Source of the DNA: Lachnospiraceae bacterium
GTDB lineage: Bacteria; Bacillota; Clostridia; Lachnospirales; Lachnospiraceae
DNA length: 64,000 nucleotides
Direction: 5' to 3'
Assembly (NCBI GenBank): GCA_017623675.1
Contig: JAGAOO010000056.1
Span: 1 to 64,000 of the forward strand
In this document: positions 25,773 through 39,381 of the stretch, in pieces
Layout of the letters: each line of letters opens with the position of its first letter
Numbering within the stretch: position 1 is the first letter of the stretch
Notes under the pieces: model-generated
Told to the model about the DNA's origin: nothing
Seen by the model: only the letters and a program-made list of their open reading frames with translations
Databases searched by the model: none
Program-made: the position numbers and the translations under genes

Positions 25773-25872
25773 TGTCCTTTGGTTTCGAGTATAATATGTC
25801 AATGTATTCCTAGAAAAATGCTATGGAATATGGTGAAGTATATTAAGATAATGACAGGGAATGGAGAAAAGT

Positions 25873-26784
25873 ATGACACTCACACAATTAAACTATGCCA
25901 TCACAGTTGCAAATGCGAATTCAATGAATGAAGCAGCCCGAAATTTATTTATTTCCCAGCCCAGTTTATCTGCTTCTATTAAGGATTTAGAAGAAGAAAT
26001 TGGTGTGGAATTGTTTCGGAGAACCAATCGGGGTATTTCGCTTACACCGGAAGGAGAAGAATTCATTGGATATGCCAGACAGGTGGTGGAACAGTATCAA
26101 TTAATTGAGGCAAAATATATAGAAAAGGAACAGGAAAAAAAGAAATTCAGTGTTTCTATGCAGCATTATACCTTTGCAGTTAATGCCTTTGTAGAAATGG
26201 TAAAGCAGTTTGGAATGGATAAATATGAATTTGCTGTTCATGAAACGAAAACTTATGACGTGATTGCAGATGTGAAGGATTATAAAAGTGAAATCGGTAT
26301 TTTGTATATTAATGACTTTAACCAACAAGTATTAACAAAACTGTTTCATGAATATAATCTTGAATTTCATCCGCTTTTGGAATGTAGAATTTATGTTTAC
26401 ATGTGGAAAGGACATCCTTTAGCAGACCGGGAGGAAATTGCCTTGGAGGACTTGGAAGAGTATCCATGTCTTTCCTTTGAACAGGGGAATTATAATTCCT
26501 TTTACTTTGCAGAAGAGGTGTTAAGTACCTATGAATATAAACGCCTGATTAAGGCAAATGACAGGGCAACTCTGTTGAATCTCATGGTGGGATTAAATGG
26601 ATATACCCTATGCTCCGGTATTATTTGTGAGGATTTGAATGGCTCCGATTACTGTGCGGTAAAACTGAAATCCGATGAAGTTATGACTATCGGATATCTG
26701 GTGCGGAAAGGCGCTACTCTCAGTAAACTGGGAAAGAAATATTTGGAAGAAATTTCAAAATATAAGGATAAGGCATTGGACTAA
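25873..26784 (+). CDS. LysR-family regulator, CysR/CmbR-like (sulfur metabolism)
   Basis: The DNA-binding domain is TLTQLNYAITVANANSMNEA followed by LSASIKDLEEEIGVELFRR. The effector domain opens with SVSMQHYTFAVNAFVEMVKQ, followed by SEIGILYINDFNQQ, YMWKGHPLADREE and NDRATLLNLMVGLNGY. This combination, especially QHYxF and DRATL, resembles the CysR/CmbR regulators of cysteine and methionine supply in streptococci and lactococci as I recall them. ATG 25873 follows GGAGAA; ATG 25861 is an alternative. Its position one gene upstream of a sulfur-transport operon makes it the likely binder of the TATAGG-N5-CCTA boxes at 27638 and 37779. That link is inference. Confidence 0.8.
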   Translation: MTLTQLNYAITVANANSMNEAARNLFISQPSLSASIKDLEEEIGVELFRRTNRGISLTPEGEEFIGYARQVVEQYQLIEAKYIEKEQEKKKFSVSMQHYTFAVNAFVEMVKQFGMDKYEFAVHETKTYDVIADVKDYKSEIGILYINDFNQQVLTKLFHEYNLEFHPLLECRIYVYMWKGHPLADREEIALEDLEEYPCLSFEQGNYNSFYFAEEVLSTYEYKRLIKANDRATLLNLMVGLNGYTLCSGIICEDLNGSDYCAVKLKSDEVMTIGYLVRKGATLSKLGKKYLEEISKYKDKALD

Positions 26785-26819
26785 TACTAGCTTAGAACGA
26801 GATGGAAAGGGTTTCAACG

Positions 26820-27575
26820 ATGTTAAATCAATTTTCAAGAACGGAATTATTGTTTGGTAAGGATGCCATGGAACGCTTAGAGCAGTCCAGAGTGGCTGTA
26901 TTTGGAATTGGCGGTGTGGGAGGATACACCGTAGAAGCGTTGGTTCGAAGTGGTATCGGTGCTATCGATATCATTGATGATGATAAGGTCTGTCTGACAA
27001 ATTTGAACCGGCAGATTATTGCAACCAGAAGTACCATTGGAAAATATAAAGTAGATGTAATGAAAGAGCGAATTCTGGATATTAATCCTAATTGTAAGGT
27101 GGAAGCATATAAGTGCTTTTATCTGCCGGAAACGAAAGATGATTTTGATTTCTCCCGGTATTCCTATGTTGTTGATGCAGTGGATACAGTGACTGCTAAG
27201 ATACAACTGGTGATGGAAGCAAAGGAAAAGAATGTGCCAATTATCAGCAGTATGGGTGCCGGAAATAAACTGAATCCGGCAGAATTTGAGGTGGCAGATA
27301 TCTATAAAACCTCCGTTTGTCCGTTGGCAAAGGTCATGCGAAGAGAATTGAAAAAGCGTGGAGTGAAGGACCTAAAAGTAGTATATTCCAAGGAACAGCC
27401 GACCCGTCCCATTGAGGATATGGCAATCAGCTGTAGAGCGAACTGCGTCTGTCCACCGGGGACAGAACATAAATGTACGGAGCGCCGGGATATTCCCGGT
27501 TCGAATGCCTTTGTACCATCGGTAGTGGGATTGATTATTGCTTCCGAAGTGATAAAAGATCTGGTGAAAGAGTAA
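26820..27575 (+). CDS. tcdA: tRNA threonylcarbamoyladenosine dehydratase
   Basis: The ThiF/E1-like fold is clear: GIGGVGGYTVEALVRSG is the ATP-binding loop, followed by IDDDKVCLTNLNRQI and DAVDTVTAKIQLV. The subfamily is shown by the short 251-residue length and the SSMGAGNKLNP and PGSNAFVPSVVGLIIASEVI segments. TcdA cyclises t6A37 of tRNA to ct6A using ATP. A cysteine-rich stretch (SCRANCVCPPGTEHKC) near residue 210 is typical of Clostridial copies. ATG 26820 fits the AAAGGG site; an upstream ATG at 26802 is possible. A terminator follows. Confidence 0.88.
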   Translation: MLNQFSRTELLFGKDAMERLEQSRVAVFGIGGVGGYTVEALVRSGIGAIDIIDDDKVCLTNLNRQIIATRSTIGKYKVDVMKERILDINPNCKVEAYKCFYLPETKDDFDFSRYSYVVDAVDTVTAKIQLVMEAKEKNVPIISSMGAGNKLNPAEFEVADIYKTSVCPLAKVMRRELKKRGVKDLKVVYSKEQPTRPIEDMAISCRANCVCPPGTEHKCTERRDIPGSNAFVPSVVGLIIASEVIKDLVKE

Positions 27576-27603
27576 AGAAAATAGAATGATTTTTAAATAT
27601 CAG

Positions 27604-27636
27604 AGTATCCAAGTGAAGTGCTTGGATACTTTTTTG
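27604..27636 (+). terminator. Intrinsic terminator after tcdA
   Basis: AGTATCCAAG (27604-27613) pairs perfectly with CTTGGATACT (27621-27630), followed by TTTTT. It separates tcdA from the next promoter module, which begins two bases later. Confidence 0.92.
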
Positions 27637-27637
27637 T

Positions 27638-27705
27638 TATAGGAAAAACCTAATATCAGTTCAAGAATTTACATATTAACACTTTTCCTATGGGAATGGT
27701 ATGAT
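27638..27705 (+). promoter_or_regulatory. LysR-type promoter module of the sulfur ABC operon
   Basis: The elements are TATAGG (27638-27643), N5, CCTA (27649-27652), N15, TTTACATATTA (27668-27678), N21 and the -10 box TATGAT (27700-27705); TTAACA at 27676-27681 is a possible -35 box. The same elements with the same spacings precede the O-acetylhomoserine sulfhydrylase gene at 37779-37846. An inverted TATAGG/CCTA about 60 bases upstream of the start, plus a second site next to -35, is the classical arrangement for a LysR activator. Confidence 0.75.
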
Positions 27706-27791
27706 AACTGCATGTCAAGGAAATGACAAAAAGAAAACAATCAAATCTATAAGGAGATTGTAAATTACACATGCGAAAGGAGAAAAAGTGT

Positions 27792-27872
27792 ATGTTAAGT
27801 AAACTACAAAACAAAAGAATAAAGAAAAGGGAAAGCTGTTGTTGCATGTGTTGCTGTCGAATGTGTGATTAG
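27792..27872 (+). CDS. Cysteine-codon leader peptide 1 (26 aa)
   Basis: ATG 27792 has AAAGGAG 9 bases upstream. The 26-residue product is lysine-rich and then ends CCCMCCCRMCD: seven of the last eleven codons are cysteine. An in-frame ATG at 27771 would add seven residues, with AAGGAG 14 bases before it. It lies between the LysR-type promoter and the first gene of the sulfur ABC operon, 77 bases before that ATG, with no other gene between. The likely role is to sense Cys-tRNA supply by ribosome stalling. I see no intrinsic terminator downstream, so control may act on translation or on another termination step. Confidence 0.7.
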   Translation: MLSKLQNKRIKKRESCCCMCCCRMCD

Positions 27873-27949
27873 AAGACGAAAAGCAGTATAAAGAGAAAAA
27901 GAAAATCAAAATAAAGCAAACAACAGAAAAATATTTGGAGGATAGAATT

Positions 27950-29113
27950 ATGAGATTAAAAAGATTTGTAAAAAGAGCAGTGGCATTGACATTGTCAGCC
28001 ACATTATTAACTGCCGGCCTGGTAGCCTGTGGCACTACTGAGGCACCGAATGATGCGTCAAGCGATGTACCGGATGCCAGTGTAAGTGATGAACCTGCCG
28101 GAGACGTTGATACGAAAGAAGACGAGGTTGCCTTTGATTCGGAAGAAAACACCATCCGCTTTGCCATTCAGGCAGGTACCATTCGTACAGCTGTTGTAAT
28201 TCTGGCAGATGAGTTGGGATATTACGAAGAAGAAGGCGTAAATGTGGAATTGATTGATAGTAATGATCCGACAGCAACGCTTACTTCCATTAGTTCGGGA
28301 AAAACAGATGTAGATGTATATGGACAGGGAATTGTTCCGGATCTTACCTTTATTGCAAATGGTTCTGACTTAGTTATCTTTGAGGGAACTGCTGCGGAAG
28401 GTGGTGCAATTGTATCCAGACCGGAAGATGTAGAAAAGTTTAAGGACTTGGCAAACTACGAGGGCGTTACTGCAGCAATGGTACGAAATGAATCAGGCTG
28501 GATTGTTACCAGACAGGCATTATTAGATGCCGGCTATGATGTGGATTCTATTACTTTATTGGAAGTGGATAGTCAGGCAAATGCGGCACAGGCTGTTTCC
28601 AAGGGAGAGGCAGATATTGCATTCTTCCCGGAAGAATTTGTTGACAGATTTTCAGATTTGAATATTGAAGAAGTAATGCCGGTAGGTGAGATTTCACCAA
28701 TGTACGTATGCTGCCGTCAGGTAACATCTTCTGAGAGATTGGAACAGAAGCATGATGCCTTTGTGAAGTTTACGAAAGCAAATCTTCGTGCATTTAAGTA
28801 TTTCAGTGACGAAGCAAATCGGGAAGAAATTATTCGGATTCTGGCTGAGTTTTCAGGACAGACAGAGGAATTCGTAAACAACTATTTCTTTGTAAACAGT
28901 ACCACATTGACACTGGATCCAAACAAGAGTGGTATCGAAACTTATTATCAGGCGTTGATAAATTCCGGTTACTTTGAAGATGATACAGATGTTAATATTT
29001 CTGACCATATCAATACAGAGATTTATAAGACAGCATTAGATGAGATTATTGAAGAGTATCCGGATGACGAGTTCTATCAGGAACAGTTGGAAATCTTCAA
29101 CGAATATAACTAG
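27950..29113 (+). CDS. Sulfonate-type ABC transporter substrate-binding lipoprotein
   Basis: A signal peptide with lipobox AGLVAC anchors the 387-residue protein outside the membrane; an acidic Ser/Asp linker follows. The body has the NMT1/SsuA-type solute-binding pattern: ADELGYYEEEGVNVELI, SGKTDVDVYGQG, VRNESGWIVTRQALLDAGYD and SKGEADIAFFPEEFVDRF. The family binds sulfonates, taurine, nitrate or thiamine precursors. The cysteine synthase and thiol genes downstream favour a sulfur source. ATG 27950 follows GGAGG. A strong hairpin separates it from the ATPase gene, which would favour higher expression of this subunit. Confidence 0.85.
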   Translation: MRLKRFVKRAVALTLSATLLTAGLVACGTTEAPNDASSDVPDASVSDEPAGDVDTKEDEVAFDSEENTIRFAIQAGTIRTAVVILADELGYYEEEGVNVELIDSNDPTATLTSISSGKTDVDVYGQGIVPDLTFIANGSDLVIFEGTAAEGGAIVSRPEDVEKFKDLANYEGVTAAMVRNESGWIVTRQALLDAGYDVDSITLLEVDSQANAAQAVSKGEADIAFFPEEFVDRFSDLNIEEVMPVGEISPMYVCCRQVTSSERLEQKHDAFVKFTKANLRAFKYFSDEANREEIIRILAEFSGQTEEFVNNYFFVNSTTLTLDPNKSGIETYYQALINSGYFEDDTDVNISDHINTEIYKTALDEIIEEYPDDEFYQEQLEIFNEYN

Positions 29114-29203: not shown

Positions 29204-29998
29204 ATGAGCAAGATTGAAATCAGACATTTATCATTCGGTTATGAAGAGAATAAGAATCATACGCCAATATTAAAGGATATTAATCTTTCAATTGAAGAAG
29301 GAGAATTTATTTGTATCTTGGGTCCGTCTGGATGTGGAAAGAGTACATTATTAAGCTTACTTGAGGGCTTGAATGTAAGCTCGGAAGGCGGAATTTATAT
29401 TGATGGAAATGAAATCAAGGGACCTGGTACAGACCGGGCTGTTGTATTCCAACATTACTCCCTCTTTCCTTGGTTAAGTGCCAAGAAAAACATTATTTTT
29501 GGAATTAAGCAGGGAAATAAGAAATATTCCAAAGCACAACGGGATGAGCTGGCTGACGAATATTTGAAAAATGTGGGTTTGGAAGAAGCTGGTGACAAGT
29601 ATCCGGCACAGTTATCCGGTGGTATGCAACAGCGGGTAGCCATAGCAAGAGCCTTGGCAATGGAAGCAGATATTTTGTTAATGGATGAGCCTTTTGGTGC
29701 TATTGATCCCAAGCTGAGGCAGGAATTGCAGGAGCTTTTCAGTCGCTTAAGTAAGGAAAAGGGTAAAACAGTAGTATTTGTTACCCATGATATTGATGAG
29801 GCTATTTTACTGGCAGACCGGATTGTGGTGATGGAACCGGGAAGGATTCGTGCAGAGATTCCGGTTACCATTCCAAATCCAAGAAAACGGGATGAACTGG
29901 CAGGCACCGAGGAATTCCAGAAGCTACATAGAAAATTGATTTCTTTGTTCTATGAACGGGTAGCACAGGAAATCGGAAATGAGGAGGTAGTGTTATGA
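29204..29998 (+). CDS. Sulfonate-type ABC transporter ATPase
   Basis: Walker A GPSGCGKST (about residue 42), Q-loop VFQHYSLFPWLSAKKNI, signature LSGGMQQRVAIARALAM, Walker B LLMDEPFGAID and switch VFVTHDIDEA are all intact. FPWL after the Q-loop is typical of the SsuB/TauB/NrtD family. At 264 residues it has no extra regulatory domain. It overlaps the permease gene by four bases (ATGA) and energises uptake by the lipoprotein and permease. AAGGAGATAGT gives a strong ribosome site. Confidence 0.9.
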   Translation: MSKIEIRHLSFGYEENKNHTPILKDINLSIEEGEFICILGPSGCGKSTLLSLLEGLNVSSEGGIYIDGNEIKGPGTDRAVVFQHYSLFPWLSAKKNIIFGIKQGNKKYSKAQRDELADEYLKNVGLEEAGDKYPAQLSGGMQQRVAIARALAMEADILLMDEPFGAIDPKLRQELQELFSRLSKEKGKTVVFVTHDIDEAILLADRIVVMEPGRIRAEIPVTIPNPRKRDELAGTEEFQKLHRKLISLFYERVAQEIGNEEVVL

Positions 29999-30897
29999 AG
30001 AAATTATTGCTTAATCGTGCCAATCTTGTATTTATAATCGATTTGTTATTGATTTTCTTCATGCCTACATCTCAGGATATCGATGCTCCCTGGGCGTTTG
30101 TAGTGGTGTTGATTTTGGCAGAAACCCTGTTTTTGGTTCAGTATGGAAGAAGTGGAAAAAAGAGTGCGGTTGATGTGGCGTTCATTGCCTTTCTGTTCTT
30201 AGGACTTTGGGAAGCCTTGAAAAAGCTGGGGCTGATGCATCCGGTTTTAGTACCGCCACCGGAAAATGTATTTAACGTATTTGTTACACAACGGGAATTG
30301 ATTCTACAAGGAATTGGAAGCTCTTTGCTTTTGCTTTTGTATGGTGTAGGTATTGCTTTGATACTTGGTGTTGTATTTGGGTTGTTGGTTGGCTGGATTC
30401 CAAGATTACGGGAAGCAGTAATGCCAATTGCCAATGTTATCAGTCCAATTCCGCCATTAGTTTACACCCCATATGTTGTGGCAGTTATGCCAACGTTCAA
30501 ATTGGCATCCATATTTGTCATTTTTTCTGCAGTATTCTGGCCAACCTTTCAGCAGATGGTGGGACGGGTCAGTAGCATGGATCAAAAGATTATTCAGTCG
30601 GCAAAGGTGATGAATGTTTCCACACCGACCATGTTGTTTAAGGTTATTTTGCCATATTGTTTACCGGGTATTATTACCGGACTATCCGGTTCCATGCGTG
30701 CAGCGTTCCTCTGCCTAACCGGTGCAGAGCTGTTAGGTGCCAGCTCAGGTCTTGGGTTCTTCGTTAAGAAGTTTTCGGATTATGCAGATTATACAAAGGT
30801 AATTACCGGTATTATTGTCATGGGTATTGTGGTAACGGTAATTGAGATATCGATTAAGGTATTAGAGAAAAAATGTATTAAGTGGAAATATAATTAA
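29995..30897 (+). CDS. Sulfonate-type ABC transporter permease
   Basis: About seven hydrophobic segments fill 300 residues. The binding-protein-dependent permease pattern is visible: LHPVLVPPPENVF before the core, GVGIALILGVVFGLLVGWIP, and an EAA-like loop at AKVMNVSTPTMLFKVILPYC followed by LPGIITGLSGSMRAAF. This matches SsuC/TauC-type permeases, with two extra N-terminal membrane segments. The start overlaps the ATPase gene, so synthesis of the two is coupled. The substrate is probably an organosulfur compound, judged from operon content only. Confidence 0.88.
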   Translation: MKKLLLNRANLVFIIDLLLIFFMPTSQDIDAPWAFVVVLILAETLFLVQYGRSGKKSAVDVAFIAFLFLGLWEALKKLGLMHPVLVPPPENVFNVFVTQRELILQGIGSSLLLLLYGVGIALILGVVFGLLVGWIPRLREAVMPIANVISPIPPLVYTPYVVAVMPTFKLASIFVIFSAVFWPTFQQMVGRVSSMDQKIIQSAKVMNVSTPTMLFKVILPYCLPGIITGLSGSMRAAFLCLTGAELLGASSGLGFFVKKFSDYADYTKVITGIIVMGIVVTVIEISIKVLEKKCIKWKYN

Positions 30898-30940: not shown

Positions 30941-31375
30941 ATGGAAGCTATCAGGGCAACGGAAACCTGGTCTAGGGCTGGCGTTTATTTTGTTCGAACA
31001 GATGCAATGGTGAATGGTTTCAATATTCCTCTTCAGGGAGAGTTTGATGCTGATACACCGGAGAGTCAATACATATTAGTGTTAGATGGTGTGCATCCGG
31101 TAGGTACCTGCAGACTACATTTCCTACCGGAGGAACAGATTGCAAAGATTGAACGGGTAGCGGTGATTGAAAGCTATCGTGGCAAAGGTGTTGGCAGACT
31201 TGCAATTACAGCAGCCGAAGAATGGATTCGGGAAGAAGGATATAAGAAAATTGTGATAACCAGTCGTGACGAAGCAGTTGGTTTCTATCAGGCATTGGGA
31301 TATACAGCCGATTTTAGCAGGACAGAAGATGGCGGCGTATTTACAATTGTTTATACAGAGAAAGTGTTAGAGTGA
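30941..31375 (+). CDS. GNAT-family N-acetyltransferase
   Basis: The acetyl-CoA-binding motif is IERVAVIESYRGKGVGRLAI, with the pyrophosphate loop RGKGVGR, followed by ITSRDEAVGFYQALGY as the C-terminal motif. The 144-residue length suits a single GNAT domain. ATG 30941 has AAAGGAG 8 bases upstream; an earlier TTG at 30920 is less likely. Its position between a sulfonate-type transporter and cysteine synthase recalls the Bacillus ytmI-type operons, where a GNAT acetylates S-alkylcysteines during sulfur salvage. The substrate here is unknown. Confidence 0.82.
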   Translation: MEAIRATETWSRAGVYFVRTDAMVNGFNIPLQGEFDADTPESQYILVLDGVHPVGTCRLHFLPEEQIAKIERVAVIESYRGKGVGRLAITAAEEWIREEGYKKIVITSRDEAVGFYQALGYTADFSRTEDGGVFTIVYTEKVLE

Positions 31376-31393: not shown

Positions 31394-32323
31394 ATGGGAA
31401 AGATTTATCATAGCATTTTAGAATTAATTGGACATACACCGTTGGTAGAACTGCATCGATTCGAGGAGGCAGAAGGTGCGGAAGCGCATATTTTAGCCAA
31501 ATTGGAATTTTTTAATCCGGCTGGAAGTGTTAAGGACCGGATTGCATGGAATATGGTACAGGCAGCAGAAGAGGAAGGCAAGCTGAAACCTGGTGGAACC
31601 ATTATTGAAGGAACCTCAGGAAATACCGGAATTGGCCTGGCAGCTGTTGGTGCGGCAAAGGGCTATAAGGTAAAAATCTGTATGCCGGATAACGTATCAA
31701 AAGAACGTCGGGTGCTGTTAAAATCTTACGGTGCAGAACTTTATCTGACTCCCGGTGAGAAAAGTATGGCAGGTGCCGGAGAAAAGACGCAGGAATTACT
31801 GGCTCAGACTGAAAATGCAATTGTAATTGGTCAGGGTGCCAACCCGAATAATCCGGGGGCACACTATAAGACCACCGGACCGGAAATCTGGGAGGATACC
31901 GGTGGAACGGTTGATATTTTAGTTGCTGCATCAGGAACCGGTGGAACTATTAGCGGAACCGGAAAGTATTTACGGGAAAAGAACCCGAATATTCAGATTA
32001 TTGCTGTGGAACCGCTGGGAAGCCCGGTACTAAACGGTGGTGAACACGGACCTCACAAGATTCAGGGCATTGGTGGCGGACCGACACCTCCGGTTACGGA
32101 TGAGTCTTTATTCAATGAGGTAATTGATGTCAGTGATGAGGATGCATATGCATATGCAAATAAATTGCCAAAGATAGAAGGAATTTCCATCGGCATCTCT
32201 GCCGGTGCGGCGTTATGGGCAGCAACGCAAGTGGCAAAACGGCCGGAAAACAGGGGAAAGAATCTTGTTGTAATATTCCCGGATAATGGAGACCATTATT
32301 TATCCGGTGACTTATATGAGTAG
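31394..32323 (+). CDS. Cysteine synthase (O-acetylserine sulfhydrylase), copy 1
   Basis: The fold-type II PLP enzyme signature is complete: NPAGSVKDR with Lys47 as PLP lysine, [11 protein letters not shown] as the substrate loop, GTGGTISGTG as the phosphate loop and ISAGAALWAA near the end. It condenses O-acetylserine with sulfide to cysteine in the cytoplasm. The loop reads EGTSGNTG rather than EPTSGNTG as in copy 2 at 34418, a small difference that could reflect a different acceptor or donor. It is in the ABC operon, 18 bases behind the GNAT gene, so it is probably the last step in using the imported sulfur. Confidence 0.88.
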   Translation: MGKIYHSILELIGHTPLVELHRFEEAEGAEAHILAKLEFFNPAGSVKDRIAWNMVQAAEEEGKLKPGGTIIEGTSGNTGIGLAAVGAAKGYKVKICMPDNVSKERRVLLKSYGAELYLTPGEKSMAGAGEKTQELLAQTENAIVIGQGANPNNPGAHYKTTGPEIWEDTGGTVDILVAASGTGGTISGTGKYLREKNPNIQIIAVEPLGSPVLNGGEHGPHKIQGIGGGPTPPVTDESLFNEVIDVSDEDAYAYANKLPKIEGISIGISAGAALWAATQVAKRPENRGKNLVVIFPDNGDHYLSGDLYE

Positions 32324-32396: not shown

Positions 32397-33506
32397 ATGG
32401 GGAATTTTGGATGTTGCGGAGGACCGATAACTCCGGTAGAGGAGCATACGGTTGGACAGTTGATAAATTGGAGTGATGAAGAGGCTGAGCAGGATGCAAA
32501 GGAACGAGGTGTTTTGCCTAGACCGAAGGAAATCAAGGATGAAATTGATGAACGGGGAGCATTTGTACGCCAACCAAATCATTTCCGTACTCCTTTTGGT
32601 GACGGCGAAGGAGAATTAAAGGCAGAAGCAGGGCGGTATCGCCTGTTTTGGGCAAAAGGCTGTCATTGGTCGAACCGGGCTGCAATTGTCAGAGAATTAT
32701 TAGGCTTGCAGGATGCTATTAGTATCAACCTGGTAAGCCATTCCGGTGAGACGAATCAATACGGCTGGGGATTCCCGGATGAACCGAATCATGAGGATCC
32801 GGTATTGGGAATCAAATTTTTAAGCGAGGTTTATAAAAATGCAGACCCGGATTATAGGGGACGGTGTACGGTACCGGCATTTGTAGATGTAACCACAAAG
32901 AAAGTAGTCAATAATGATTATCATCGATTAACCAATTATCTGGAGGTAGCCTTCCGTCCGTGGCAGGCAGAGGATGCACCGGATTTATATCCGGAGGAGC
33001 TTCGTAAGGAGATAGATGATTTTAATGACTGGCTGTTTCCGAATATCAATAACGCCCATTATCGTATGGCATTTTGCCAGTCCTTGGAGGCATATCAGGA
33101 AGCATTTGAAGACTTTTATAATGCCATGGATTTGTTGGAAGAACGATTATCTAAGAATCGGTTTTTATTCGGTGATTATGTAACAGACAGTGATGTACGG
33201 TTCTTTGTAACATTGGCCCGATTTGATACGCATTATTACCGGAATTTGGGACCGATTAAACATCGGGTTGTAGATTATGAGAATATCTGGGCTTATTGCA
33301 GGGACTTATATGAAATACCGGCATTTAAGAACAATACTTATTTTAAGGATTTCTCCAGAGAAAGTGGAAAGAATCAGTTATTTGCTTCCTTTAATGCCCG
33401 CTTTGCAGACCAGATTGATTATGAGGCATTTTGGTCTACTCCACAGAACCGGAAGGCATTAAGCAAGACGCCGGAGGAGAAATTCCTGCGACACAACAGG
33501 AAATAG
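32397..33506 (+). CDS. ECM4/YqjG-like glutathione-transferase-family protein
   Basis: The 369 residues match glutathionyl-hydroquinone reductases in layout: FRTPFGDGEGELKAEAGRYR, then the thioredoxin-fold active site FWAKGCHWSNRAAIVRELLG, VPAFVDVTTKKVVNNDYHRL, and a helical C-terminal domain (FLFGDYVTDSDVRFFVTLAR, YYRNLGPIKHRVVDYENIW). The active site reads Cys-His-Trp-Ser where family members usually have Cys-Pro-Trp-Ala. The nucleophilic Cys is kept. An extra GCCGG lies at the N-terminus. ATG 32397 follows AAGGAGGA. The thiol cofactor is uncertain, since most Clostridia lack glutathione; remnants of a glutamate-cysteine ligase-like gene follow. Confidence 0.82.
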   Translation: MGNFGCCGGPITPVEEHTVGQLINWSDEEAEQDAKERGVLPRPKEIKDEIDERGAFVRQPNHFRTPFGDGEGELKAEAGRYRLFWAKGCHWSNRAAIVRELLGLQDAISINLVSHSGETNQYGWGFPDEPNHEDPVLGIKFLSEVYKNADPDYRGRCTVPAFVDVTTKKVVNNDYHRLTNYLEVAFRPWQAEDAPDLYPEELRKEIDDFNDWLFPNINNAHYRMAFCQSLEAYQEAFEDFYNAMDLLEERLSKNRFLFGDYVTDSDVRFFVTLARFDTHYYRNLGPIKHRVVDYENIWAYCRDLYEIPAFKNNTYFKDFSRESGKNQLFASFNARFADQIDYEAFWSTPQNRKALSKTPEEKFLRHNRK

Positions 33507-34417: not shown

Positions 34418-35353
34418 ATGGCAGAGATTAAAGAAAGTGCATTGGAATTAATTGGAAACACACCGCTCTTGAAATTGAATCGTTATAGTGCAAAAGCAGG
34501 TGTTGAGGGAGCAACAATACTTGCTAAGCTGGAGTATTTGAATCCGGCAGGTTCCGTAAAGGATCGTATTGCATTAGCTATGATTGAGGATGCAGAGCAG
34601 AAGGGATTATTGAAGCCGGGTGCAACAATTATTGAGCCTACCTCAGGAAATACCGGTATTGGTCTGGCGGCAGTTGCAACTGCGAAAGGATATAAGGCAA
34701 TTTTAACTTTGCCGGATACCATGAGCGTAGAGAGAAGAAACTTATTGAAGGCTTATGGCGCTGAGTTAGTATTAACAGAGGGTGCAAAGGGCATGAAGGG
34801 AGCCATTGCTAAGGCAGAGGAGTTGCGTGATTCCATTCCTGGTGCATTAATTCTTGGTCAGTTCGTAAATCCTGCCAATCCAAAAGTTCATAAGGAAACA
34901 ACCGGTCCTGAAATCTGGAAGCAGACCGATGGTAAAGTAGATATCTTTATTGCCGGGGTTGGTACCGGTGGTACAGTTACCGGTGTTGGTGAATACTTAA
35001 AGTCTCAGAATCCAAATGTGAAGGTAATAGCAGTAGAGCCGGAAACCAGTCCTGTTTTATCCGGTGGTGCTCCCGGACCACATAAGATTCAGGGTATTGG
35101 TGCAGGTTTTGTACCGGATGTATTGAATACAAAGGTTTATGATGAGGTACTTCCAATTGCAAATGAAGATGCATTTGCAGAAGGAAAAGCATTTGCGGTT
35201 AGTGAAGGTATTCTGGTTGGTATTTCCTCCGGTGCTGCATTAAAGGCAGCAAGTATTGTAGCTGCCCGTCCGGAAAACAAAGGAAAAACCATTGTAGTTT
35301 TGTTGCCGGATTCTGGTGACAGATACTTATCTACACCTTTATTTGCTAACTAA
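34418..35353 (+). CDS. cysK: Cysteine synthase (O-acetylserine sulfhydrylase), copy 2
   Basis: PLP Lys48 lies in NPAGSVKDR, and the substrate loop is [12 protein letters not shown], the phosphate loop [10 protein letters not shown] and the C-terminal [10 protein letters not shown]. All are canonical for CysK, which makes cysteine from O-acetylserine and sulfide. ATG 34418 has GGAGGT 8 bases upstream. It is a single-gene unit with its own promoter, a CCTA-N9-TAGG operator candidate and a terminator, unlike copy 1, which is in the ABC operon. It is probably the housekeeping enzyme, repressed when cysteine is sufficient. Confidence 0.92.
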
Positions 35354-35500: not shown

Positions 35501-35935
35501 ATGAAGATATCAACAAAAGGAAGATATGCATTACAGTTAATGTTGGATTTGGCAGTCTACAATACCGGCGAACCGGTGAGTATAAAAGACATTTCGAAGA
35601 GACAGGGGATTTCTGAAAAATATTTGGAGCAAATTATATCCATATTAAATAAAGCAGGATATGTAAGAAGTATACGTGGACCTCAGGGAGGATATTTCTT
35701 AAGCAAGAAGCCGGAGGAATACACCGTAGGTATGATTTTACGACAAACAGAAGGAGATTTGGCACCGGTTAGCTGTGTTGGAACTGAGAATCCCGGATGT
35801 GAGCGACAGGAAGAATGTGTTACGGTTAAAATCTGGCAGCAGATTAATGATGCAGTGAATGGAGTTATCGACAATATTACATTAGCCAATTTAGTGGAGT
35901 GGCAGGCAGAAAAAGCGAATAATTATGTGATTTAA
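35501..35935 (+). CDS. Rrf2-family regulator (IscR/CymR-like)
   Basis: The 144-residue protein begins MKISTKGRYALQLMLDLAVY, the canonical Rrf2 winged-helix start, and contains ISEKYLEQIISILNKAGYV and SIRGPQGGYFLS. Near residue 95-110 it has three cysteines (SCVGTENPGCERQEEC), the spacing class that in IscR-type members can ligate an iron-sulfur cluster; Bacillus CymR lacks them. ATG 35501 follows GGAGGA. It directly precedes iscS-iscU, so it probably senses cluster or cysteine status and controls iscS and cysK through CCTA-N9-TAGG sites. Confidence 0.88.
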   Translation: MKISTKGRYALQLMLDLAVYNTGEPVSIKDISKRQGISEKYLEQIISILNKAGYVRSIRGPQGGYFLSKKPEEYTVGMILRQTEGDLAPVSCVGTENPGCERQEECVTVKIWQQINDAVNGVIDNITLANLVEWQAEKANNYVI

Positions 35936-37778: not shown

Positions 37779-37846
37779 TATAGGGTATTCCTATAACTAA
37801 TTCATAGTTTTACATATTAGACAAGCCAGAGGTGAAATGATATTAT
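37779..37846 (+). promoter_or_regulatory. LysR-type promoter module of the O-acetylhomoserine sulfhydrylase gene
   Basis: The elements are TATAGG (37779-37784), N5, CCTATA (37790-37795), TTTACATATTA (37809-37819) and the -10 box TATTAT (37841-37846), with TAGACA (37818-37823) as -35 and a 17-base spacer. The distances between elements are identical to the module at 27638-27705, and the intervening bases differ. That pattern is expected of conserved protein-binding sites rather than recent duplication. Confidence 0.78.
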
Positions 37847-37897: not shown

Positions 37898-37960
37898 ATG
37901 AGACTTATATTCATTCAAAAAGGAGCAGCTATTTTCGACCGAATGTGTTGCTGCTTATAG
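37898..37960 (+). CDS. Cysteine-codon leader peptide 2 (20 aa)
   Basis: ATG 37898 follows AAAAGGGG by 9 bases. The 20-residue product starts MRLIFIQKGAA and ends DRMCCCL: three consecutive cysteine codons, five codons before the stop at the latest. It lies between the LysR-type promoter and the O-acetylhomoserine sulfhydrylase gene, 113 bases before that ATG. Its N-terminal part differs wholly from leader peptide 1; only Arg-Met and the Cys cluster are shared, which points to selection on codons rather than on the protein. Confidence 0.65.
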   Translation: MRLIFIQKGAAIFDRMCCCL

Positions 37961-38073: not shown

Positions 38074-39381
38074 ATGAGTAAGAAAACATATGCAGAAAGA
38101 AATTTGAAATTTGAAACATTACAGTTACATGTTGGACAGGAAAAGCCGGACCCGGTTACAGATGCAAGAGCAGTGCCAATTTACCAGACTTCTTCCTATG
38201 TATTCCGAAACAGTGAACATGCGGCAGCCAGATTTGGTTTAACAGATGCAGGTAATATCTACGGAAGATTAACCAACCCAACCGAGGATGTATTTGAACA
38301 GAGAATTGCAGCGTTAGAGGGCGGTGTTGCAGCGTTAGCAGTAGCTTCCGGTGCAGCAGCCATTACATATACCTTTGAAAATCTGGCACAGAATGGCGAT
38401 CATATTGTATCTGCAAAGAATATTTATGGTGGTACTTATAATCTATTAGCACATACGCTGCCACAGTACGGTATTAACACCACCTTTGTAGACCCATTTA
38501 ACTATGATGAACTGGAAGCAGCCATTCAGGATAATACCAAGGCAGTCTTTATTGAAACCTTAGGAAATCCGAATTCCGATGTAGTAGATATTGAAAAAAT
38601 AGCAGGCATCGCACATGCTCACAAGATACCGTTGGTGATTGATAATACATTTGCAACTCCTTATCTGGTTCGTCCGATTGAGTATGGTGCAGATATTGTA
38701 GTTCATTCTGCTACGAAGTTTATTGGTGGACATGGTACAACTATTGGTGGTGTGATTGTAGACAGTGGTAAGTTTGATTGGGAAGCAAGTGGTAAGTTCC
38801 CATCACTGACTGAGCCAAACCCAAGCTATCATGGTATCAGTTTTACGAAAGCAGTTGGTGCAGCCGCATTTGTAACAAAGATTCGTGCAATTTTGCTTCG
38901 GGATACCGGTGCTACATTGTCGCCATTCCATGCATTCTTCTTTTTACAGGGATTAGAAACCTTGTCATTAAGAGTAGAACGTCATGTGGAGAATTCTTTG
39001 AAGGTTGTTGATTACCTGAAGAATCATCCACAGGTTGAAGCAGTACATCATCCGGCTGTTTCAGAGGACCCGGAACAACAGGCATTGTACAAGAAGTATT
39101 TCCCGAATGGCGGTGGTTCTATCTTTACCTTCGAAATCAAGGGTGATGCACAAAAGGCAAAGGATTTCATTGATAATCTGGAATTATTCTCCTTACTTGC
39201 GAATGTTGCAGATGTGAAATCATTAGTCATTCATCCGGCTTCTACCACACATTCTCAGTTAAATGAGGAGGAATTATTAGACCAGGGTATCAAGCCAAAT
39301 ACTATCCGTTTGTCCATCGGTACTGAGAATATTGATGATATTATTGAAGACCTTGAAGAAGCATTTAAGGCAGTGCAGTAA
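38074..39381 (+). CDS. O-acetylhomoserine sulfhydrylase (aminocarboxypropyltransferase)
   Basis: The 435-residue Cys/Met-metabolism PLP enzyme has FETLQLHVGQEKPDPVTDAR at the start, SGAAAITYTFENLAQNGDHI, LGNPNSDVVDIEKIA, and the PLP lysine in VVHSATKFIGGHGT. The long insertion and overall length are those of MetY-type enzymes rather than cystathionine synthases. It makes homocysteine from O-acetylhomoserine and sulfide, or methionine from methanethiol, or acts in cysteine-homocysteine balance. Regulation appears double: a LysR-type promoter and a Cys-codon leader. It is a single-gene unit with a hairpin after it. Confidence 0.92.
   Translation: MSKKTYAERNLKFETLQLHVGQEKPDPVTDARAVPIYQTSSYVFRNSEHAAARFGLTDAGNIYGRLTNPTEDVFEQRIAALEGGVAALAVASGAAAITYTFENLAQNGDHIVSAKNIYGGTYNLLAHTLPQYGINTTFVDPFNYDELEAAIQDNTKAVFIETLGNPNSDVVDIEKIAGIAHAHKIPLVIDNTFATPYLVRPIEYGADIVVHSATKFIGGHGTTIGGVIVDSGKFDWEASGKFPSLTEPNPSYHGISFTKAVGAAAFVTKIRAILLRDTGATLSPFHAFFFLQGLETLSLRVERHVENSLKVVDYLKNHPQVEAVHHPAVSEDPEQQALYKKYFPNGGGSIFTFEIKGDAQKAKDFIDNLELFSLLANVADVKSLVIHPASTTHSQLNEEELLDQGIKPNTIRLSIGTENIDDIIEDLEEAFKAVQ

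Follow-up and report, generated by a model that had tools for sequence, protein, structure and literature searches.

A probable cysteine-codon leader peptide before a clostridial sulfur ABC operon and its place in a family of CGA-AUG leaders

Upstream of a sulfur ABC operon in a Lachnospiraceae genome we found a 26-codon frame (leader 1) that has its own ribosome site, ends in a dense run of Cys codons and carries the hexamer CGA-ATG in frame. The same hexamer recurs in short frames before sulfur genes of other clostridia, with an invariant CGA codon and with Cys codons confined to the leader frame. Judged from these sequences, leader 1 is probably (at roughly 0.6) a cis-acting regulatory leader peptide of a clostridial CGA-AUG family, on which the ribosome would pause at the core under the control of cysteine supply. 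Members of this family share CGA-AUG (Arg-Met), mostly followed by Cys or stop, between a promoter and genes for OAHS, SsuA-type ABC transporters, MetQ or CysK. We regard a cis-acting leader as the likeliest explanation because of the position, the frame-specific Cys codons and the fixed core.

Results

A Cys-rich short frame and its surroundings

The window, by which we mean the whole 64,000-nt stretch analysed here, contains two leaders, each followed by sulfur genes (Table 1). The operon behind leader 1 encodes an SsuA/NMT1-type lipoprotein, an ABC ATPase, a permease, a GNAT acetyltransferase and CysK. NifS and NifU are also encoded in the window, among the second CysK, the Rrf2 regulator and OAHS; the CymR label of this regulator denotes a resemblance, because its score is below the CymR cut-off. 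A gene inside the sulfur cluster (32409-33503) encodes a GST-domain protein (Pfam GST_C_2) that looks YqjG/Xi-class-like by eye and has a GCC motif close to the N-terminus.

Table 1 Features of the window around the two leaders
Feature	Position	Strand	Remark
LysR gene	25861..26784		two genes upstream of leader 1
ThiF/TcdA-like gene	26802..27575		between LysR gene and leader 1
Promoter-like TTAACA-18-TATGAT 5' of leader 1	27676..27705	+	10/12 consensus letters
Palindrome TTCCTATGGGAA in promoter spacer	27685..27696	.	sequence
Leader 1 ribosome site AAAGGAG	27776..27782	+	9 bases 5' of ATG
Leader 1, MLSKLQNKRIKKRESCCCMCCCRMCD then stop	27792..27872	+	26-codon frame, translated from sequence
Leader 1 Cys-codon run	27837..27869	+	7 Cys in 11 codons
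Leader 1 CGA-ATG core, then TGT	27858..27863	+	sequence
SsuA/NMT1-type substrate-binding lipoprotein	27950..29113	+	first operon gene; Pfam NMT1 above, TIGR01728 below cut-off
ABC transporter ATPase, nitrate/taurine/sulfonate type	29204..29998	+	profile match
ABC transporter permease, TauC/SsuC-like	29995..30897	+	profile match
GNAT acetyltransferase	30944..31375	+	profile match
Cysteine synthase CysK	31394..32323	+	profile match
Second cysteine synthase CysK	34418..35353	+	profile match
Rrf2-family regulator, CymR/IscR-like	35504..35935	+	below CymR cut-off
Palindrome TATAGGGTATTCCTATA upstream of leader 2, TATAGG-N5-CCTATA, candidate regulator site	37779..37795	.	
Promoter-like TAGACA-17-TATTAT before leader 2	37818..37846	+	1 in scan, 1.3 expected by shuffling
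Leader 2, MRLIFIQKGAAIFDRMCCCL then stop, before OAHS	37898..37960	+	alternative ATG 37892
Leader 2 CGA-ATG core, then TGT TGC TGC	37940..37945	+	sequence
O-acetylhomoserine/O-acetylserine sulfhydrylase (OAHS)	38074..39381	+	TIGR01326 above cut-off

The first-pass annotation had described a 26-codon frame with AAAGGAG at 9 bases and seven Cys in the last eleven codons, and all of this was read again in the sequence. The Cys density was unmatched in 3000 dinucleotide-preserving shuffles of the region 27576-27949, in which the three plus-strand frames reached a maximum of 5 Cys per 11 codons, and the run is the densest Cys stretch of the 64-kb window on both strands. The leader 1 frame was confirmed to be real. 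An alternative in-frame ATG at 27771 would give a 33-residue peptide. The end of the predicted -10 box lies 86 bases before the ATG, and promoter-like sites near leader 1 numbered 2 in the scan against 1.7 expected by shuffling.

A peptide with a basic N-terminus and seven Cys could also be a functional micro-protein, binding metal or thiols or serving as a RiPP precursor. We consider this very improbable: the leader 1 peptide had no Pfam/NCBIfam match at E 0.001 (at E 10 there was one chance Pfam hit, at 1.7), no RiPP enzyme was found among the scanned neighbour genes, and the relatives described below share only R-M and position, some of them being free of Cys.

Two kinds of palindrome lie near the promoters. 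TTCCTATGGGAA may serve as operator for the Rrf2/CymR-type regulator whose gene starts at 35504, and the TATAGG-N5-CCTATA palindrome is possibly the site of the LysR regulator encoded at 25861. Separately, a degenerate TATAGG-N5-CCTATA was noticed 5' of leader 1 (about 27636-27658), TTTACATATTA follows the palindromes, and similar blocks were seen by eye before OAHS in locus L088 and before the binding-protein gene in genome G147.

A second leader and the extent of the family

When the leader 1 peptide itself was searched against 299 family genomes, it retrieved itself and 29 matches with E values of 0.04-0.97, and in the 14 contexts inspected among these 29 no sulfur gene was seen to have such a leader. 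Searching 397 genomes with a loose Cys pattern gave matches in 354, largely at CAG-repeat-like sites, and the pattern was dropped; the stricter 15-mer CGAATGTGYTGYTGY gave 6 matches in 99 genomes, of which 2 are leaders and 4 lie inside coding genes. The family emerged from orthologs of the binding protein. Two Oscillospiraceae whose binding protein is 57% identical (orthologous loci L038 and L039) have short frames of the NFRxGRM type at the same place, MRNDLIEMIRSNFRCGRMLDDRADRMAGRFQAPVDRMCM and MKHGFPALFRHNFRNGRMPGRVMVRCRVDATDTKPGISSKNL, each ending at a stop. A DNA search for NFRxGRM with any Arg codon in these two genomes gave four places, the two known ones and two new short frames just 5' of an OAHS-like gene (named by eye). 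These pointed to the OAHS gene of the window, before which leader 2 has the same CGAATG as leader 1.

Taken by itself, the Cys count of leader 2 is no more than chance would give, since 387 of 3000 shuffles reach its 3 Cys in 11 codons. A second OAHS gene of the same genome is preceded by the leader MGFYFEKLVRENFRFGRM and its stop. In locus L186, from the genus of the window, a leader containing IQKEAACFKRMCCQE ends in KRMCCQE before the stop; it clearly corresponds to leader 2.

For a wider sample we took the 70 best-scoring OAHS places from 245 class genomes, of which 117 have the gene at E<=1e-150. Within 270 bases before OAHS, CGAATG was present in 41 of these 70 places (39 genomes, 22 families), where it reads as Arg-Met in a short frame, and was missing from the other 29. 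Among 180 hexamers of the same composition the mean was 2.9 (CGAATG itself included), the next best reached 10 and the reverse complement 1. The leader frame was defined by the register of CGA-ATG, its beginning by whichever upstream start and ribosome site were best. With 15 further leaders the 41 made a compilation of 56, which are 10-45 residues long, have an SD core of at least 4 nt within 18 nt in 54 cases and lie at a median distance of 67 nt from the gene. Leader 1 fits the definition of the family (CGA-ATG in frame with Cys or stop next, an SD, and a sulfur gene downstream), its core being followed by Cys, and represents a Cys-run subtype (CCCRMCD) that is without RxN[FWY]RxGRM. Kept outside the 56 were the L083 leader, an L176 leader before OAHS and three leaders with VMC for RMC (L087, L212, L228); L260, with CGAATG in a 35-residue frame, and L203, where CGAATG is followed by G without a leader-like frame, were not counted. 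A second CGAATG in L107 was dropped for want of a start, and the weak L108 leader (GTG, no SD) was retained.

The pattern N-x-R-x-G-R(CGA)-M had 33 matches in 31 of the 245 class genomes, compared with 4 for the reversed pattern. Twenty-six matches lie before OAHS and 2 before MetQ/NlpA lipoproteins; behind the 5 located elsewhere no sulfur gene was seen. A scan of aligned leaders with Pfam/NCBIfam gave no model match (16 of 23 were long enough to scan).

Within the Lachnospiraceae, OAHS was present at E<=1e-210 in 176 of 299 family genomes, and besides that of the window we read 81 OAHS upstream regions (29 + 52 loci), in several of which the fetched stretch may stop short of the operon start. 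Eleven had a leader by reading: nine of the RM type (L186, L202, L204, L208, L213, L234, L235, L240, L258) and two with VMCC (L212, L228). In several other Lachnospiraceae, OAHS lies directly 3' of cysK, and the L204 leader precedes that cysK. The L208 leader, MTTIFKDLLRENYRNGRMCCCCM then stop, combines the peptide motif and a Cys run. As a side observation, a homolog of the LysR gene at 25861 (by eye) precedes OAHS in L226, L243 and L244.

Constraint on the core and the codon after it

The 41 OAHS leaders were identified without use of Cys. The codon 3' of CGA-ATG is Cys in 18, stop in 15 (TGA 12, TAA 3) and another codon in 8. As a control, the fetched loci contain, both strands taken together, 302 further CGAATG sites, and of these 13 are followed by TGY and 14 by TGA. 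Counted by frame in the 30 bases after CGAATG, TGY triplets numbered 50/3/3. These counts support the view that Cys codons are under selection at a fixed place. Of the 56 leaders, 12 lack Cys altogether, 18 stop immediately behind Met (15 of these at UGA), and 31 contain RxN[FWY]RxGRM.

The Arg before Met is fixed as a codon. In a codon-blind search with [NSHQ][FWY]RxGRM, the second Arg was CGA in 30 of 30 cases and the first was written with six codons, CGA in 4; this covers loci fetched without the CGA pattern, and CGA held throughout when all loci were included. For comparison, CGA makes up 20 of 133 Arg codons in ten genes of the window. Three close pairs with identical peptides (L091/L092, L103/L111, L116/L123) differ by 11 synonymous and 0 non-synonymous changes; between the remaining pairs non-synonymous change is common and the synonymous excess is weaker, with none in some, such as L097/L103.

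On a rival reading the family is an arrest-peptide system that would work like TnaC or SpeFL. Here R-x-N-[FWY]-R-x-G-R-M, as a nascent chain, would bind a sulfur metabolite in the tunnel and so block either release at UGA or transfer to Cys, with only a secondary part for the Cys codons. The conservation of the peptide under free synonymous change, the motif in 31/56, the 18/56 leaders ending right after Met (15 at UGA) and the 12/56 without Cys are all in its favour. We nevertheless judge it unlikely as the primary explanation, since a pure peptide model has no need for a second Arg fixed as a codon, and in leaders 1 and 2 and most Lachnospiraceae OAHS/cysK members nothing but R-M or V-M remains of the motif, usually together with a Cys run, the exceptions being L208 and the leader of the second OAHS in the genome of the window.

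CGAATG is followed by a pyrimidine in 56/56 (T 48, C 8), including all 11 leaders that continue with a codon other than Cys or stop. GAA-UGY is thereby constant in the +1 frame (56/56), which brought programmed +1 frameshifting into consideration; it was set aside as unlikely, since the leader frame itself bears the conserved peptide and the Cys codons.

The leader 1 locus in relatives

Few genomes encode the binding protein: it occurs in 2 of 8 genus genomes (E<=1e-20) and 3 of 397 family genomes (E<=1e-70), that of the window included in both counts. In the same-genus genome G301 the gene lies at a contig end, and the contig stops before the leader position. The ortholog in G147 (binding protein 75% identical) keeps the promoter TTAACACTTTTCCTATrGGAATGrTATGAT with two letters differing and the palindrome TTCCTATGGGAA with one change (L033), and its -10 box is about 80 bases from the gene start, compared with 244 in the window. 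No leader lies between promoter and gene in this closest readable ortholog (L036), and none was seen in L037 of G136, whose binding protein is 61% identical. Leader 1 therefore lacks conservation at its locus in the nearest relatives whose sequence can be read. Across the 17 loci of SBP relatives, 14 upstream regions were read: leaders were found in 2, L035 is cut off before the leader position, and no leader was seen in the other 11.

The first-pass annotation had named conservation in relatives beforehand as one of the tests that could refute its reading, and the absence of leader 1 from G147 and G136 goes in part against it. Its broader proposal of a cysteine-sensing leader in Clostridia survives in that Cys leader frames do precede sulfur genes (18/41 against 13/302; frames 50/3/3), but not as a conserved feature of this locus nor as a description of all members, 12/56 being without Cys.

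The SsuA-type operons of Oscillospiraceae (L038 4165-9270, L039 7207-13590, L042 12605-15500) include an enolase-superfamily-like gene, and those of L038 and L039 a molybdopterin-oxidoreductase-like gene too, all named by eye; the compound transported may therefore not be a simple sulfonate.

Terminators, pairing and folding

The first-pass annotation saw no intrinsic terminator after leader 1, and we agree: the plus strand has no terminator-like site between leader and gene, its only one (27602-27632) preceding the promoter. Transcription attenuation of the trp type was accordingly rejected for leader 1. No plus-strand terminator-like site follows leader 2 either. In the family, 3 of 56 leaders have such a site 3' of the core, compared with 0.7 expected by shuffling, by a scan that is not exhaustive, as it missed a hairpin in L038. 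This hairpin, recognized by eye 3' of the leader and listed by neither of two scans, is GC-rich, contains an inner loop and is accompanied by a U run.

The role of the leaders might be limited to ribosome loading or to maintaining translation at the 5' end, with no sensing role for the Cys codons. SD cores in 54/56, the median spacer of 67 nt and terminator-like sites in only 3/56 suit such a role, yet Cys after CGA-ATG (18/41) and the frame-specific Cys codons would be left unexplained, and we give it little credence.

The stall segment (30 bases around the core) pairs with the ribosome site of the gene more than expected (mean 4.7 against 2.0 pairs; Wilcoxon p=0.006, n=56), and removing the stretch that a stalled ribosome would cover opens this site beyond shuffles (0.115 against 0.049, p=0.003), both p-values being too optimistic because the leaders are related. 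Pairing of at least 5 pairs, reached by at most 2 of 20 shuffles, occurs in 15 of 56 leaders, with next to none in many others; it is 0.0 in leader 1 and 8.1 in leader 2 (2.5 expected; reached by 2 of 20 shuffles). The pairing of stall region and ribosome site in 15/56 may point to translational attenuation in part of the family.

Folding of the whole leader is unremarkable (z -1.5 for leader 1, -0.7 for leader 2) and in the family is on average near that of shuffled sequences (mean z -0.7, 12/56 below -2). At the gathering threshold no Rfam family was found on the window, and Rfam gave no T-box or S-box on the window, L082-L085, L036 or 40 OAHS loci. The sole Rfam match in those 40 loci was a c-di-GMP-II riboswitch (L087 1156-1238, minus strand) near the OAHS of G443.

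These results also bear on the idea that CGAAUGY is an RNA-level site, recognized by a protein, RNA or nuclease, that merely lies inside a short frame. The use of CGA in 30/30 despite six Arg codons and the pyrimidine in 56/56 could be read in this way. With Cys codons restricted to the leader frame (50/3/3), the peptide conserved under synonymous variation in the close pairs, folding near shuffled (mean z -0.7) and no relevant Rfam match in 40 OAHS loci, we hold it to be improbable.

Discussion

If leader 1 is a regulatory leader peptide of the CGA-AUG family, a ribosome on the leader would pause with Met in the P site at CGA-AUG followed by UGY or UGA. Under a shortage of Cys-tRNA the ribosome would be held at the core by the UGY codons, of which leader 1 has seven; in Cys-free members the pause may come from slow release at UGA or from nascent-chain arrest by RxN[FWY]RxGRM. 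As a result of the pause, the gene behind the leader would be expressed more strongly. In some members this probably works through the opening of a helix that the stall site forms with the ribosome site of the gene. For leader 1 our guess is that coupling would work by protection of the mRNA 5' end or by another route.

With 12/56 leaders free of Cys, a shortage of Cys-tRNA cannot by itself account for how the family works, and these Cys-free members together with the 18 leaders ending after Met give it a resemblance to an arrest peptide. Since both types share CGA-AUG and hybrids of peptide motif and Cys run exist, such as NYRNGRMCCCCM, our proposal is a single stall site that is served by either of two sensors. 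In its boldest form, which we put forward tentatively and at less than even odds, CGA-AUG-UGN would be a new stalling element with two interchangeable sensors, arrest at UGA responding to a sulfur metabolite and Cys codons responding to tRNA charging; lineages would slide between the two, and CGA would be part of the stall. CGA would be decoded slowly via inosine-adenine wobble.

A family of this kind would give clostridia of at least 22 families, in addition to transcriptional regulators, a control of sulfur assimilation that acts at the ribosome, and a class of small ORFs for which no Pfam or NCBIfam model was found would be accounted for. The invariant CGA and the swap of Cys and UGA at one position open to experiment the way in which codon, nascent chain and A-site substrate act together in a stall.

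Arrest peptides such as TnaC and SpeFL have a conserved C-terminal peptide in a short leader, often ending at the stall site before the stop. The clostridial leaders resemble them in their C-terminal peptide and often in a stop at the presumed stall site, and differ in the invariant CGA and in that about half have Cys codons where the stop would be.

Mycobacterial polycysteine short ORFs are reportedly leaderless, to judge from the title of work by Canestrari et al. in 2020, unlike the clostridial leaders with their SD and predicted 5' UTR. Leader 1 is like them in being a short frame with a Cys run near the stop before sulfur/cysteine genes. The clostridial family differs in conserving CGA-AUG, often with RxN[FWY]RxGRM, in that many members end in Met-UGA without Cys, and in phylum and genes (OAHS, SsuA-type ABC, MetQ). 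According to excerpts of the literature, the mycobacterial ORFs are cysteine-responsive attenuators acting on translation (PMC13236596), and stalling in the uORF unmasks the downstream ribosome site (PMC13236596, PMC4633059, PMC9094748). For the clostridial leaders a mechanism of this type would be the simplest one. Actinobacterial Cys-codon leader peptides had been proposed, with candidates lacking obvious terminators, in an excerpt of PMC1262725.

The uORFC-8-2 motif, before cysS in Rhodobacterales, is described in an excerpt of PMC8632094 as having conserved Cys codons in a uORF, the tandem Cys codons usually at positions 14-15, with two stems and an intrinsic terminator with a U run. The clostridial leaders share with it a uORF with Cys codons before a cysteine-related gene; unlike it, 53/56 have no terminator-like site by scan. 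In the open-licence PMC literature we found no description of a clostridial Cys-leader family. These leaders would extend the Cys-codon leaders described in Actinobacteria and Rhodobacterales, and there is a real chance that the Cys-free branch holds something newer.
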